Virus record (IMG/VR): IMGVR_UViG_3300020472_000074
Location: 1-37,972 of that record
From: a virus
Length of the DNA stretch: 37,972 nt
Strand: one strand, 5' to 3'
In this document: positions 16,864-23,962 of the stretch, one piece after another
Numbering within the stretch: position 1 is the first letter of the stretch
Layout of the letters: every line of letters starts with the position of its first letter
Translations under genes and position numbers: made by a program
The notes under the pieces: generated by a model
What the model was told of the DNA's origin: nothing
The model's input: only the letters and a program-made list of their open reading frames with translations
Databases searched by the model: none

Positions 16864-17330
16864 GCATCTTTAAGGACATTAAAGAACTCTCTGGTGGTAA
16901 ACCTCAATCAAAAGATTGGTATCGCTCACAGATGTTCTATGGGTTACCAGATTTACAGACAGATATAAAGGCAGGATTGATATTATTTTATAATTACAAT
17001 GCCACTACTGAGAAATTACCATTCTTTGATCGTTATCCGATGACTCTGATTACTGGGATTAGTCCAGTTACAGGTCATTTTTGGGGCGGTAATCTACACT
17101 ATTTGCGTCCAGAAGTTAGACAGGGAGTGGCAAAAACATGGGGTAATGGTGGTACTGCATATCCTCTCCGTTGCCATCATAAATACTTAATGTCAAATGC
17201 TACAACTATAAAGGTGGTAGAACCTATAGAACTGCGTGATATGATCCCGTTACCGTTAGAAAAATTTGTTGTTAACGTTGCTGGTCAGAGACTTGATATA
17301 CCTAGTAGCTTCATTTGGAGTCGAGTCTAA
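16860..17330 (+). CDS. Conserved T4-like structural/assembly protein, unknown
   Basis: The 156-residue protein contains LILFYNYNATTEKLPFFDRYP and GHFWGGNLHYLRPEVRQG. This FYNY, DRYP and N-HYL pattern recurs in a small conserved protein of T4-like phages. I cannot name it with certainty. It starts in an ATGA overlap with gp4 and ends one base into the next start. Position between gp4 and the gp54-like gene suggests a role in tail or neck assembly. Confidence 0.72.
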   Translation: MSIFKDIKELSGGKPQSKDWYRSQMFYGLPDLQTDIKAGLILFYNYNATTEKLPFFDRYPMTLITGISPVTGHFWGGNLHYLRPEVRQGVAKTWGNGGTAYPLRCHHKYLMSNATTIKVVEPIELRDMIPLPLEKFVVNVAGQRLDIPSSFIWSRV

Positions 17331-18109
17331 TGGCAATGCACACCCATCCCAATAATTATCAGGCTTTTACAGAAGCAGTAGCAACTGGAAAATTAGAACC
17401 ATCTAGACAGAATTTATATGGTGTTACGATAGCACCTCCTATAACTTTACGAAAGATACTAGGTACCAGTGATACAGCGAATACAGGTGTATCGATGGAT
17501 CAATTTATGCGTAATGTTAATTTGTTTTCATCTGCAGTTACTATTCCCAGTAGAGCAGTTACCACTGGTCAGGTTAATAACCATGGTATGATGCGTAGAT
17601 TTGGTACTGGTCAGACTAGTTCACAGATCAGTATGAGTTTCTTATCTACTAAGGATAATTTTATTAGAGAATGGTTTGAGATGTGGTTACATATTATAAG
17701 CTCTGATTCCGATAATACTGTAGGATTCTATGATGATTATGTAACATCAGCAGAAATAATAAAGTGGGAAGTAGGGTCTAATGTAGTGCAGTCCTTTGAT
17801 TTTTATAAGACAGAAATACCTCAAGTTCCTAGGAAGTATACTGGTAAAGCAACATTAAATCAGGCAACTGCTGTATACCAATTCTATAATCTATTTCCTT
17901 TTAATATAAGTACTCAAACTCTTGATAACGAAGCAATGTCATTGATGCGAGTTGATATACAGTTCTATTATGAACGTTATCGTTTTGATACTGTTAATGT
18001 AGATACTCTTAAGTGGTTAGGACCTAAAAATGCGAGGAACAGGGGTATTTCTGAAGATGAAGTTGCTGAGAAGAATGCACAGAGTAAGTATTCTGCGTAC
18101 GGGACCTAG
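17330..18109 (+). CDS. 54: Baseplate tail-tube initiator, gp54-like
   Basis: The 259-residue protein looks like a tail-tube-fold protein: NLYGVTIAPPITLRKI, then FSSAVTIPSRAVTTGQVNNHGMMRRFGTGQ, SQISMSFLSTKDNFIREWFEMW and a terminal beta segment SLMRVDIQFYYERYRFDT. This order of a ligand loop, a W-rich helix and a closing strand is what gp54, gp48 and gp19 relatives show. Together with gp48 nearby it fits gp54, which starts the tube on the baseplate. The start at 17330 shares its first base with the preceding stop. A late promoter follows the gene. Confidence 0.68.
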   Translation: MAMHTHPNNYQAFTEAVATGKLEPSRQNLYGVTIAPPITLRKILGTSDTANTGVSMDQFMRNVNLFSSAVTIPSRAVTTGQVNNHGMMRRFGTGQTSSQISMSFLSTKDNFIREWFEMWLHIISSDSDNTVGFYDDYVTSAEIIKWEVGSNVVQSFDFYKTEIPQVPRKYTGKATLNQATAVYQFYNLFPFNISTQTLDNEAMSLMRVDIQFYYERYRFDTVNVDTLKWLGPKNARNRGISEDEVAEKNAQSKYSAYGT

Positions 18110-18147: not shown

Positions 18148-18849
18148 ATGCCTTTACCAAAGCTTGCGGTGCCCGAATATGAGTGTACCCTACCTGTTAG
18201 TGGGACAAAAGTCTCATATCGACCTTTTCTTGTAAAAGAAGAGAAACTGCTTTATATCGCTATGGAATCTCAAGATGAGAAAGAAATGATCAAAGCAGTG
18301 AAGAATATATTAAAAGCATGTACTAATGTCAAAAAAGTGGATGATCTCGCTACATTCGAGATTGAGTATTTGTTTTTAAGGATTCGTTCCAAGGCAGTTG
18401 GTGGTATTAGTGAGTTTAAAGTAGTATGTGAAGATGATGGTGTGACATCTGCATCTGTTAAAATCGATTTGGAGGATATTGAGGTAGTAGTACCCAAGAC
18501 CCACAAAAAGATTCTTGATATAGGTGATGATGTCAAAGTTGAGATGAAATATCCTTCCCTCAATGCATTCGTTGATAGGAATATGAAGGATAAACCTACA
18601 ATGGATGATATATTTGATCTTGCTGCAACATGTGTAGATAAGGTATATCAAGGTGATGAGATTTACGACTCTTTTACTAAGAAAGAAGCATTGGACTTCT
18701 TGGGTGATATGAACAATTCTCAATTTGAGAAGGTTCAGGGTTTCTTTGAGTCGATGCCCAAACTAGAACATACCATAGAAGTTATTAATCCTAAGACTAA
18801 AGTAGTGAACGAAACTAAACTTGAGGGTCTAGCGGCTTTTTTCGCATAG
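18148..18849 (+). CDS. 26: Baseplate hub/tail assembly protein gp26
   Basis: This 233-residue protein fits T4-like gp26: VPEYECTLPVSGTKVSYRPFLVKEEKLLYIAMES near the N-terminus, a helical MIKAVKNILKACTNVKKV segment, and FEIEYLFLRIRSKAVGG. gp26 is needed to build the baseplate hub and resembles tail assembly chaperones. The gene ends GLAAFFA at a stop preceded by T TTT TTC, and slipping back one base there joins it in frame to the next ORF. No Shine-Dalgarno site stands directly before that next ORF. Late promoter 18118 precedes the gene. Confidence 0.88.
   Translation: MPLPKLAVPEYECTLPVSGTKVSYRPFLVKEEKLLYIAMESQDEKEMIKAVKNILKACTNVKKVDDLATFEIEYLFLRIRSKAVGGISEFKVVCEDDGVTSASVKIDLEDIEVVVPKTHKKILDIGDDVKVEMKYPSLNAFVDRNMKDKPTMDDIFDLAATCVDKVYQGDEIYDSFTKKEALDFLGDMNNSQFEKVQGFFESMPKLEHTIEVINPKTKVVNETKLEGLAAFFA
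18837..18843 (+). promoter_or_regulatory. Candidate -1 programmed frameshift site (gp26 to gp51-like)
   Basis: The heptamer T TTT TTC fits the X-XXY-YYZ slippery rule in the gp26 frame (codons TTT 18838, TTC 18841). A -1 shift continues CGC ATA GCG TTA into the ATG of the next ORF at 18855 without a stop, giving a fusion of about 298 residues. GAGGG (18823-18827), nine bases upstream, resembles the stimulatory Shine-Dalgarno of dnaX, and a small GCAT...ATGC hairpin follows. Confidence 0.6.
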
Positions 18850-18854
18850 CGTTA

Positions 18855-19043
18855 ATGCATGATAGTCTTGAGAATCATTTTAAGACTAACTTTGCATTAA
18901 TGCAGCACCACAAGTACAGTTTAACTGAATTAGATAATATGATGCCTTGGGAGCGAGATGTATACGTTAACCTATTGATTGCTCATTTGCAGGAAGAGGA
19001 ACGTAGACGTGATAAAGAAAATCAACAATCAAACGCCCTATAA
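18855..19043 (+). CDS. 51: Small gp51-like hub assembly protein
   Basis: The 62-residue protein (LENHFKTNFALMQHHKYSLTELDNMMPWERDVYVNLLIAHLQEEERRR) is a conserved short ORF of cyanomyoviruses after gp26, often labelled gp51. The MPWERDVYVNLLI helix and basic tail look like the C-terminal part of a tail assembly chaperone GT fusion. It is much shorter than T4 gp51 (about 249 residues). It could be made by reinitiation, since its ATG is six bases after the gp26 stop, or as a frameshift extension of gp26. The next gene starts on its stop. Confidence 0.75.
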   Translation: MHDSLENHFKTNFALMQHHKYSLTELDNMMPWERDVYVNLLIAHLQEEERRRDKENQQSNAL

Positions 19044-21691
19044 TGGCAGAAGCCGCCTTAAGAAAATTTATATCAGTAGTACCTGATGAGGAAGGTAAGA
19101 AGTCTGGTGCCTTTGCTGCGACTACATCTGTTAACAGAATGGGTCATGCTATTACTGGCATAGGTAAGAGTTTTCTACAGGTTAATGAACTCATTAAGTT
19201 TCAGAATGAGTGGATTCTTGGTGTTAAGGATAAGGAAATCGAAAGGATAGATGATCAATATAAAAAGGAGAAGGATGATGAAGCAGAAGCAGATAAGAAA
19301 AAGAAAAAGAGAGCAAATCTAGCTAAAGACCTCAGTTCTGAGAAATTACAAGCAGATGGTAAGAAGTTAGGTGTAAAGTTATTTAAGAAGGATAAGAAGG
19401 ATAAGCGTAAATGGGGATGGGCAGAGAGTCTTCTTAAAGCCATGTCTCCTATTTTTAATGCGATACAGTGGTTTGCACAGACTGTTATCACCTATGTTGT
19501 CTTTAAATGGTTAGGTGATCCAAAGAATAAGGATAATATAGAGAAATTTCTTAAGTTTATCTCATCATTAGGTAAGTTTGCATGGTGGTTGACTGAGAAT
19601 AGTATCGGTCTATTGATGGATGGTGTTACTAAGACATTTAGTTGGGATCCTAATAAGAATGCTATAGAGAACACATTTGAGACTTTGTTTGGTGCTCTCC
19701 AAATACTTGGGGGATTGGCAGGTATCTGGGCAGTATCCAGAATTCTTATGCCATGGAAGATACTAGGTGATGTCAGAGCCATGGCAGCACTTGGTACAGC
19801 AGTCACTGCTGCTGAGGCATCTGGATGTGGACCTAGAGGAAGAAGATATAAACCAAAAGGTGTTGATGGTAAACCTAGGTTTGACCCTAAGGAGGTAAGA
19901 CGCAGAGCAGATAATATACGACGTATTAGAAGAAATAAGAGGTTGGCAAAACTTTATAGGAGGTTATCTGCTTTACAAGAAGCAGGTGCTAAACTTGTAA
20001 GGAAAACTGCTTCTAACACTAAGGCACTGATTGAGTCATCTCAAGTAGCTCTGAAATCAGAAATTACCAGATTAAATAAACTTATTAATGAGAGGGCTGC
20101 AAAGAGGGCATTACAAAAGCAGGCACTAGAAGAATCTACTCAAAAGATAATCCAGAAAGGAACTTCTAATGCGACTCAGAAGGGTGTCAAAAATGTTACT
20201 CAAGAGATATTACAAAAAAGTGTGATAACAGCCACACAAGAAGGTAGTGAAAAGATTGGCAAGGAAATTGTTATCCAAACACAAAAGGAAGTTGTTGAGA
20301 GCGTTATAAAAGCAATGGAGGTGGAGAAGGTAATACCTGAGGTAGTAGAAGAGGGGTCAAATGTAGCCAAGAAAACTCGTTGGCAGAAGATTACAGGATT
20401 TATAAATGATACGAAGAATAAAACTGGAGATATCATAGTTGCTGTTGCAGACACTACAAAGAAAGGTTTCGAGATAGCTGGTAAGTTCATGTGGAACAGG
20501 ATCATTGTTCCAACAGGTAGAGGACTTGTAGAACTTGGTGGTGTCATCGATAGGAGGACAGCTGGTATTAGGCAATCAATAGCATCAGCTCCAGGTAAAT
20601 TAGTTGAGGCAGGTACTAGTATAGGTAAAGGTTTAGCAGATAAGTGGAAAAACTTTGATGAGTTTATCAAAAATCCTGATAAATTGATGGAGGTTATCCA
20701 AAATATGATGAAGGGCAAGATAGATGGTCTTGTTAAGGATAATCCTTTAATAAAAAATATAGGGGATGTTGCCAAAAACCCTGGGAAGACACTGCCAGGG
20801 TTATATCAGAATGTTATGGATAACCCAATCCTTAAGGAATGGCAGACTGCTTTTCTTGATGGAAGTGCTAGTGGAGCATCAAAGGTAGATGCAGCAAATG
20901 CAATCAATATGGGACCAATAGATCTTCTTATTGATGCTGCTATGGCAATTTTTGATTATGCTTATTTGGGAGAATCACCTATTAATGCTTTTGCTAAAGC
21001 AGCAGGTAGTTTTGTAGGATATGGTGTTGGTTTTACTGCTGCATCACTAATACCAGGAGCACAAGGTTGGGGATCATTCCTTGGTGGTATCGCAGGTGCA
21101 ATGCTAGGTGAATGGGCAGGTGAAAAGATTGCAGAAGGTATAGGACATTTATCAGAGCAAGGAAATGTCCCAGGTCCTGGTGGTCTTTATAATATGAGAG
21201 ATCCACTTGCTAAAGCTATATTAGGTAATAAGGAGCATCCACAGAATAAGCAAGAGAGTGATGGAAATATATTAACACCAGATTTTAAAGAGAGACCTGT
21301 TTTACGTCATAAGAAGGCAGCAAAGTTTGAGTTTGGTAATCCAAATCTAGAAGATAGGGGTGCACCTTATATGGATGGTGGTTTTGTACCAGAAGATAAG
21401 AAACCAGCATTTAAAATGCCTGCTTATATGAGTATGATGGATCATATGAGAAAGCGTACACCTTATCAAATTGGGAAAGCAACAGAAAAGATTCGTGGAT
21501 CTGAAATAAATATTACAACAATGATGTCTGAATTATCCTTACGTAAGGTGAGAAGGGTGAAAGAAATACAAATGCATACTCATGTTGTTGCTGTCACTCA
21601 ACCAGTTATAAAAACAGTACACAAAAAAGCAACACCACCATCAATACATTATACATCAACAAATCCACATGTCTCCATGTTCTCTAAGTAA
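19043..21691 (+). CDS. Tape-measure-like tail protein (gp29 position)
   Basis: This 882-residue protein is Lys/Glu-rich and mainly helical, with a coiled-coil-like charged region (residues about 70-110), a hydrophobic stretch (WFAQTVITYVVFKWLG, about 145-160), a basic RRRADNIRRIRRNKRLAK region near 290, a Gln/Thr/Lys-rich repeat-like region (about 355-430) and a Gly/Ala-rich hydrophobic segment near 660-700. It sits between gp26/gp51 and gp27, where T4 places the tape measure and hub proteins. The next gene is a paralogue. It could be the gp29 length ruler, possibly inserting into the host membrane during DNA transfer. The product name is inference. Confidence 0.65.
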   Translation: MAEAALRKFISVVPDEEGKKSGAFAATTSVNRMGHAITGIGKSFLQVNELIKFQNEWILGVKDKEIERIDDQYKKEKDDEAEADKKKKKRANLAKDLSSEKLQADGKKLGVKLFKKDKKDKRKWGWAESLLKAMSPIFNAIQWFAQTVITYVVFKWLGDPKNKDNIEKFLKFISSLGKFAWWLTENSIGLLMDGVTKTFSWDPNKNAIENTFETLFGALQILGGLAGIWAVSRILMPWKILGDVRAMAALGTAVTAAEASGCGPRGRRYKPKGVDGKPRFDPKEVRRRADNIRRIRRNKRLAKLYRRLSALQEAGAKLVRKTASNTKALIESSQVALKSEITRLNKLINERAAKRALQKQALEESTQKIIQKGTSNATQKGVKNVTQEILQKSVITATQEGSEKIGKEIVIQTQKEVVESVIKAMEVEKVIPEVVEEGSNVAKKTRWQKITGFINDTKNKTGDIIVAVADTTKKGFEIAGKFMWNRIIVPTGRGLVELGGVIDRRTAGIRQSIASAPGKLVEAGTSIGKGLADKWKNFDEFIKNPDKLMEVIQNMMKGKIDGLVKDNPLIKNIGDVAKNPGKTLPGLYQNVMDNPILKEWQTAFLDGSASGASKVDAANAINMGPIDLLIDAAMAIFDYAYLGESPINAFAKAAGSFVGYGVGFTAASLIPGAQGWGSFLGGIAGAMLGEWAGEKIAEGIGHLSEQGNVPGPGGLYNMRDPLAKAILGNKEHPQNKQESDGNILTPDFKERPVLRHKKAAKFEFGNPNLEDRGAPYMDGGFVPEDKKPAFKMPAYMSMMDHMRKRTPYQIGKATEKIRGSEINITTMMSELSLRKVRRVKEIQMHTHVVAVTQPVIKTVHKKATPPSIHYTSTNPHVSMFSK

Positions 21692-23962
21692 ATGGCAACA
21701 ATAGGTCAACCCACTCTTTATAAAATGGTCACTCCTCCCAAAGGTGAGGGTAGTGGCATGGGTTCTCTTGTCAAATCAATGAATAGTCTTGGCACTACTA
21801 TTAATAGTATTGCATTCATTGCTGCTGATATGAATAAGAATTTTGCTAAGGGTATCAAGCATCAAATCAGTAAGCAAGAAGATATATCTAAGAAGCATAC
21901 TAAAATAGAGAATAAGAAGTTAACAGATAAGAAGAAGAAGGAAGCTGCCCTTAGAAAGTTAATGAATAGGAGGCAGGATCAGGACGCAGAATCTGATCAA
22001 AAGAGTATCATAGCTCAGTTTGGTGGCACTATGATCAAAGCTGCCAAGGGTGTTTTAGGATTCTTCGAAGGTTTGGCAGCAGCACTGGAAGCAATATTCG
22101 TAGGTTTTGTTTCTTATGCTGTCTTTAATTGGTTAGGTAAGGCAGAGAATAAGAAGAAGGTTAAGAAGTTCCTTGAGTTCATGTCATCCCTTGGTAAGTT
22201 TATAATCTGGGCAGTTACTGGACTGGTTAACATGGGATTGGGTGGTATCACAGATTTCTTAGAGAATCCAGTATCATTTAAAGGTTTGTTTGGTCTGGTA
22301 AAATTCCTGACAGCATTGGGACTAGTATTTGCTCCAGGTGCTACAATATCTGTGGCGTTAGCTGGGGTCATGACCCTCTTTAAGGCAGGTAGACTGGTAC
22401 CTTTACTGAAGGGATTCTTTACTGGTGTATGGGGTTTAGTCAAAGGTCTTTTGGCATTTCTTGCTAAACGACCTCTCGTTGCTGCAGGTTTATTAGCTGC
22501 TGGTTGGGGTGCTTACATGATATTTGGTAGAGATGATGAAGGTGAAGGTGATGCTGTTGACAACATTGAGGATAATCAAAAGGAAAGACCAACTCTCGAA
22601 AATAGTAGTGAGAAGGAAGTACTTAGTGCCATGGATGAGCGTATTATTGCTCTCCAAAATCAGATTGATAGTATGACATGGTGGGAAAAACTCACTACAA
22701 ATCAAGATGATAACTTGAGGCAAGAAATTACTGAGATTAAGAACCAAAATCAAACTGACACATCTGGAGATGTTACACCTAATAAAGTTGAGACAAATGA
22801 AAAATTACCTGAGAAGAAACAAGGTGGATCAGTCGTTATACCATCCAATCCTTTCGTACCAAAAATGGACATGGGTGGGTGGATTACTGGTCCTCAGTCT
22901 GGTTACCCCGTCAGCCTCGATGGCGGTGGTTCCACCTCTTTCATTGGACATGGAACAGAGTGGGTTGGATTCCCCAAAGCATCAAGGGGTGGAGCATTTG
23001 TGGTGCCCTTCGATACTCCCTCCACCCGAACTAATCCTGGCTTAACTAATAAGAGACTTGGTGAAGCAAAGAAAGGTGGTTTCGCTATGCCTTCCTTCCA
23101 GATGGGAGGTTTACATGCTACTAAGAATACACATAGTCCTATATTTAATCTTCCAAGTTTCTCTCAAGGTGGAAGTCTTAGAGATGGAACTAATGAGGAG
23201 AAGTGGGCAAAGGTTAAAGGTATGGCAGAGAAAGCAGGTGCTAAGTATCCTAATTTAGTTGCTGCACAGTTTGCTTTAGAATCTGATTGGGGTCGTGCAA
23301 CTGGTGCTAAGAATAATTACTTTGGTATTAAGGCTCTTGCCAGTGAATTATCTACTAATTCTGGCACTTGGGAAGTATATAATGGCAAGAGAGTAAATAC
23401 CAGTGCAAACTTTAAGCAATTTGAGACACCTTACGCAGCAATTGAGCATTTAGTTACTCAGTGGTATAAAGACTATAAAGGATATAAGGGTGTAAATAAT
23501 GCTGCATCTGCTATGGATGCAGCAGTAATGCTTAAGACTGAAAACTATGCTACTGATCCAATATATCCTCAAAAATTGCAGTCTTTACTGAAGACTTATA
23601 GTAATGTTCCAGCAGCAAGACAACCTGTTGTTACATCTGAGACAATTAAACCTTCTAATAAAGCATGGTGGGATCCTCTTGGAGTATTTACTGGTAAACC
23701 AGAGGAAAAAGCATCAACTTCTGGTAATACTATAGGTGAATCTGCTTTAAATGACTCTAGTTTACCGTGGGGTGAAGATGCTGACGTTAGTGTACAACCA
23801 ATGCAGCTACCAGCAATAGATACAACACCACCATCTATTGATGAAGATATACCACAACCTATCTTTATACCTAATGAATATGAACCACCTGCTCATCCAT
23901 ATATTAAAGCAAGATTTGGAATGATGGCAGATGCTGATACTTGTCCCGATAGACTATTCTAA
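21692..23962 (+). CDS. Tape-measure-like hub protein with GH73 glucosaminidase domain
   Basis: The 756-residue protein is a paralogue of the preceding one: both share VFxWLG followed by KxxKFLxFxSSLGKFxxW and a Lys-rich N-terminus. Residues about 503-643 form a glucosaminidase (GH73) domain, with VAAQFALESDWG carrying the catalytic Glu (E530) and NNYFGIKA after it. This cuts peptidoglycan and is the likely tail lysozyme, since gp5 here has no recognisable lysozyme. Residues about 400-480 contain the GPQSGYPVSLDGGGS and GGAFVVPFDTPSTR segments. It begins directly after the previous stop and ends overlapping gp27 by one base. Confidence 0.82.
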   Translation: MATIGQPTLYKMVTPPKGEGSGMGSLVKSMNSLGTTINSIAFIAADMNKNFAKGIKHQISKQEDISKKHTKIENKKLTDKKKKEAALRKLMNRRQDQDAESDQKSIIAQFGGTMIKAAKGVLGFFEGLAAALEAIFVGFVSYAVFNWLGKAENKKKVKKFLEFMSSLGKFIIWAVTGLVNMGLGGITDFLENPVSFKGLFGLVKFLTALGLVFAPGATISVALAGVMTLFKAGRLVPLLKGFFTGVWGLVKGLLAFLAKRPLVAAGLLAAGWGAYMIFGRDDEGEGDAVDNIEDNQKERPTLENSSEKEVLSAMDERIIALQNQIDSMTWWEKLTTNQDDNLRQEITEIKNQNQTDTSGDVTPNKVETNEKLPEKKQGGSVVIPSNPFVPKMDMGGWITGPQSGYPVSLDGGGSTSFIGHGTEWVGFPKASRGGAFVVPFDTPSTRTNPGLTNKRLGEAKKGGFAMPSFQMGGLHATKNTHSPIFNLPSFSQGGSLRDGTNEEKWAKVKGMAEKAGAKYPNLVAAQFALESDWGRATGAKNNYFGIKALASELSTNSGTWEVYNGKRVNTSANFKQFETPYAAIEHLVTQWYKDYKGYKGVNNAASAMDAAVMLKTENYATDPIYPQKLQSLLKTYSNVPAARQPVVTSETIKPSNKAWWDPLGVFTGKPEEKASTSGNTIGESALNDSSLPWGEDADVSVQPMQLPAIDTTPPSIDEDIPQPIFIPNEYEPPAHPYIKARFGMMADADTCPDRLF

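Follow-up and report, generated by a model that had tools for sequence, protein, structure and literature searches.

A conserved −1 frameshift signal at the junction of genes 26 and 51 in a marine phage clade and its probable role in making two forms of a tail assembly chaperone

In other long-tailed phages a −1 programmed frameshift serves to give the tail its proper length. The heptamer of the lambda G/GT pair is G GGA AAG, and that of Escherichia coli dnaX, where the shift gives a shorter product, is A AAA AAG. Lambda gpG/gpGT, both of which act on the tape measure protein (PMC5009743), serve as the functional model for the pair treated here. The tail assembly chaperone (TAC) genes of T4-like phages were identified in 2022 (Vladimirov, Gautam & Davidson, Virology 566:9-15; doi 10.1016/j.virol.2021.11.003; as cited in PMC12846349, PMC10885494 and other papers), and poly-T slippery sequences in the genes of their short form, TAC-N, are stated as known in the passage of PMC12846349 that concerns them. 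In this work the junction of genes 26 and 51 was analyzed in a 37,972-nucleotide stretch of viral DNA (IMG/VR record IMGVR_UViG_3300020472_000074, positions 1 to 37,972), referred to as the window.

The analysis indicates, with a probability of roughly 0.93, that genes 26 and 51 of this marine T4-like cyanophage are a single TAC gene, from which two nested proteins are made by a −1 slip on U UUU UUC. The sequence-only reading had proposed a frameshifted G/GT-like pair at this position, which the conservation described below supports; it knew of no established case at gp26/gp51, but the T4-like TAC genes had been identified in 2022. The pairing is therefore correct but already known. With those T4-like TACs, as far as the citing papers describe them, the window pair has in common the logic of a short form and a long form (TAC-NC) and the poly-T sites. 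The T TTT TTC heptamer of the window differs from that of lambda. The TAC of phage Adele (Pakpunavirus/Andersonviridae; PMC12846349) shares the conserved −1 extension and a T-rich site where TAC-N ends, but its motif is GTTTTT and it belongs to other phage families. In signal layout dnaX has the same three parts (an upstream Shine-Dalgarno (SD) sequence, the heptamer and a downstream stem-loop), although the shifted product is the longer one in the window.

The open reading frame (ORF) of gp26 ends in GCT TTT TTC GCA TAG, which places T TTT TTC in the zero-frame phase of an X XXY YYZ site; both the coordinates and the phase given by the sequence-only reading are right to the base (Table 1). 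After the slip the −1 reading is TTT TTT CGC ATA GCG TTA ATG (FF-R-I-A-L-M-H-D-S-L) and remains open until the TAA at 19041-19043. The frame thus runs into the ATG without a stop and the joined gp26/gp51 product has 298 residues, as had been foreseen. Since the −1 frame opens only at 18825, the usable overlap is about 25 nucleotides (nt) long, and the heptamer lies inside it. The gp51-like frame matches phrog_634 (E 2e-28) and the C-terminus of phrog_150 (E 3e-4), and it aligns with the C-terminal part of T4 gp51.

Table 1. Coordinates of the gene 26/51 junction and of the adjoining genes in the window.
Feature	Position	Strand	Evidence or remark
gp26 frame, short chaperone form (TAC-N), 233 amino acids (aa)	18148..18849	+	Pfam T4_baseplate E 6e-63; phrog_150 E 5e-68
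SD-like GAGGG, 9 nt 5' of the slippery site	18823..18827	+	codon choice constrained
Slippery heptamer T TTT TTC	18837..18843	+	81/81 loci including the window
−1 frame after the slip, C-terminal domain (TAC-C, 'gp51'), 66 codons and stop	18843..19043	+	open in every locus
Zero-frame stop TAG, one sense codon past the heptamer	18847..18849	+	sequence
Predicted stimulatory hairpin	18849..18903	+	folding energy, paired changes
ATG, annotated-style gp51 start, probably no true start	18855..18857	+	no SD, position varies
Tail tube protein (gp19-like), gene upstream of the pair	17315..18109	+	phrog_45 'tail tube' E 8e-36
882-aa ORF directly downstream, probable tape measure protein	19043..21691	+	position

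The junction was compared with 80 relatives from metagenomic viral contigs, whose gp26 is 47-77% identical to that of the window (81 loci with the window), and with a wider table of 108 loci that includes phages of distant hosts; a Vibrio gp26 used as query gave no matches among the viral contigs. T TTT TTC lies exactly ten bases 5' of the gp26 stop in all 80 metagenomic relatives, and in all 80 the −1 frame continues without a stop into the same domain. This alignment had been named beforehand as a check that could refute the frameshift, and both the T-run and the open frame were kept, also when it was extended to the 108 loci. In the wider table the heptamer is found at the identical distance in 101/108 loci and six T followed by C in 106/108. 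The heptamer is kept in Cronobacter S13, Stenotrophomonas Bhz51, Vibrio 6E35-1b and KVP40, Aeromonas CC2, Pseudomonas Milchi, Agrobacterium OLIVR6 and Synechococcus MC09; Sinorhizobium phiN3 and Pelagibacter HTVC008M carry T TTT TTT and Rhizobium RHph_I1_18 carries T TTT TTA. Two loci (L101 and L103) have the heptamer 16 nt before the stop, with three sense codons between, so that the distance to the stop is not strictly fixed. Other long ORFs of these loci hold 251 Phe-Phe pairs, of which 14 are written TTT TTC and only 5 (2%) T TTT TTC, vs 81/81 at the junction; the loci are related and the counts are not independent trials, while synonymous positions elsewhere vary freely, and the presence of the heptamer at the junction is far beyond chance. 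A +1 shift was ruled out because across the 81 loci the +1 frame closes 13-64 nt past the stop.

Upstream of the heptamer, the Glu codon is GAG in 60 of the 81 loci (34% background). The remaining 21 loci have GAA, and in each of them the next codon is GGA or GGG (40% in the background; p about 4e-9 if independent). The choice of codons at this Glu-Gly pair is thus under constraint and keeps the match to the anti-SD sequence, which supports the earlier proposal of a dnaX-like stimulatory SD nine bases upstream of the site.

Downstream of the heptamer lies a predicted stimulator that the sequence-only reading lacked. The predicted 55-nt hairpin of the window begins 6 nt after the heptamer, leaving a 5-nt spacer, with a folding energy of −26.2 kcal/mol for a 75-nt segment (z −5.6); the mean folding z across the 108 loci is −1.95. 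The register of the hairpin differs between two subgroups, and each was tested separately against shuffled controls, which leave the relatedness of the loci in place. In the closest 14 loci 81% of the hairpin cells are paired, with 11 double-sided changes vs 4.2 ± 1.6 after shuffling. A different hairpin (GGTCC-ATAT-GGACC and variants) is seen in 49 other cyanophage loci, with 25 double-sided changes vs 6.9 ± 3.8, and an alternative stem in these same loci gives 35 vs 12.8 ± 4.2. The compensatory changes in both subgroups are suggestive of conserved hairpins, although they are not proof. The junction has an in-phase X XXY YYZ heptamer, T TTT TTC, together with two putative stimulators, the SD codon bias and the hairpin at its 5-nt spacing.

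The conserved heptamer and the sequence around the putative gp51 start also bear on how the downstream frame is reached. If gp51 were a separate protein made by termination and reinitiation, ribosomes would terminate on the gp26 TAG and begin again at a nearby ATG, which in the window lies just 5 nt away; such coupling requires no SD, and such an ATG is often used as the gp51 start in GenBank records. This is very improbable. The first −1-frame ATG shifts from locus to locus, lying 5, 8, 14 or 23 nt past the stop, and 8/81 loci have no ATG, GTG or TTG within the first 18 codons, whereas the protein sequence FFR[IVL] ahead of the ATG is conserved. An SD (4-base match, 5-16 nt upstream) was found at none of the candidate starts in the 73 loci that have one; the ATG at 18855 likewise has none, in line with the earlier claim that the downstream ORF is without a ribosome site of its own. 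Under reinitiation the heptamer would have no reason to persist in 81/81 loci, and a native in-frame long form is known, T4 gp51. Transcriptional slippage, by which the polymerase would add or drop a base at T6 and some mRNAs would encode the fusion, is marginally less probable again: T runs are slippage-prone in principle, mixed products would follow and HTVC008M has a longer run (TTTTTTTT), but the conserved form is six T then C and not a longer run, it stands invariably in X XXY YYZ phase, and the SD-like codon bias and the hairpin affect ribosomes, not the polymerase.

In the frameshift explanation, most ribosomes would terminate at the gp26 stop, yielding TAC-N, and a minority would slip back one base on U UUU UUC and continue in the gp51 frame to give TAC-NC. 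The slip would be stimulated by the SD-like GAGGG upstream and the hairpin just downstream. By analogy with lambda G/GT, the tape measure protein would be coated by both forms, with the C-terminal domain recruiting tail tube subunits. The computation shows the site and its conservation, the codon constraint, the homology and the gene order; the occurrence of the shift in cells, its ratio and the chaperone role are inferred.

In T4 and in phage 133, genes 26 and 51 are on opposite strands. The cyanophage gp26 aligns with T4 gp26 at an hhalign probability of 99.7, and for the conceptual fusion and T4-type gp51 the alignment extends over the whole length and crosses the junction (FFRIAM.. / IFKLLI..), at 99.0 over 243 columns, so that full-length homology holds for both T4 proteins. 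T4 gp51 and gp26 are themselves paralogs (hhalign probability 98.8). The end-to-end alignment of the fusion with T4 gp51 indicates that T4 encodes the short (26) and the long (51) protein as separate paralogs, and the same two products would there come from two genes. The PHROG profiles contain the same link between 26 and 51, as the window's gp51 ORF is matched by the C-terminus of phrog_150 (gp26). T4-type gene 26 has no heptamer in any of the loci examined, the two Phe residues being written TTC TTT or lost. The 2022 study reportedly names genes 26 and 51 and finds frameshifting conserved in several T4-like groups, T4 not being one of them. We lean slightly towards a scenario that goes further than the published frameshift: in cyanophages the SD-like GAGG, T TTT TTC and clade-specific downstream hairpins, whose pairing is maintained through compensatory changes even though the same bases encode TAC-C, tune the ratio of short to long chaperone, and in the T4 clade a gene duplication took the place of this signal and the heptamer was lost. 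PMC3004832 lists T4 gp26 and gp51 among the hub assembly chaperones and states that gp51 does not occur in the finished particle.

The gene order agrees with that of G/GT-type pairs, the pair lying between the tail tube gene and the tape measure gene, the latter assigned in the window by position only. The equivalent downstream gene is the annotated tape measure in HTVC008M and Rhizobium RHph_I1_18; no family match of the 882-aa ORF was strong enough to prove this identity. An AlphaFold2 model of gp26 (predicted local distance difference test, pLDDT, 83.7) was compared with known structures. The best matches of its N-terminal domain (residues 1-94) were 3fgx (Z 7.5), the HK97 TAC 2ob9 (Z 7.5) and YqbN 3klu (Z 6.8), the next, unrelated match having Z 2.2. 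Plain Foldseek with the same model gave no match with E <0.001 (the HK97 chaperone ranked 4, E 2.0), so that the structural claim depends on the second aligner, and the gp26 profile found no believable relative in a PDB sequence search.

Several observations weigh against a frameshifted chaperone. All structural matches of gp26 are below Z 8, and the model of the T4-type gp51, a long form, retrieved no known TACs among the PDB rows. RNAalifold found no common structure in 80 ungapped junctions, no single consensus spanning all loci. The remote Vibrio phages K393 and SD25, among the most distant relatives, have no T6 heptamer. Instead, K393 shows a stop-start overlap (TAATG) and SD25 carries a run of GTTTTT close to its stop; coupled translation or a different slip site may operate in these two.

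Around the pair, the listed start of the tail tube ORF is a TTG that overlaps the end of the previous gene (17315-17345); translation probably begins a few codons on, at a nearby ATG. Two large ORFs follow in tandem (19043-21691, 882 aa; 21692-23962, 756 aa), the second with a Glucosaminidase domain. Their N-terminal regions are 28% identical over 237 aa (E 3e-11), and they are probably duplicated tape-measure-type genes.

The GenBank records of ACG-2014d, S13 and CC2 leave the gp51 ORF unannotated. The −1-frame C-terminal domain is found in an unannotated gap separating annotated genes in Cronobacter S13 (L081:4712-4875) and in Aeromonas CC2 (L085:4700-4866).

As the central idea was published in 2022, the value of the present analysis lies in its confirmation, its extension to a large marine clade and the correction of annotations; the quantified three-part signal, with its codon-level and hairpin evidence, may be a new addition. 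The small 'gp51' ORF of cyanomyoviruses, often misannotated or, as in the three phages above, omitted, most probably encodes no hub catalyst of its own but the second, C-terminal part of a tail chaperone made by frameshifting. This would tie genes 26 and 51, the classical hub genes of T4, to the lambda G/GT mechanism, and the system could be used as a test bench for the frameshift ratio vs tail building.
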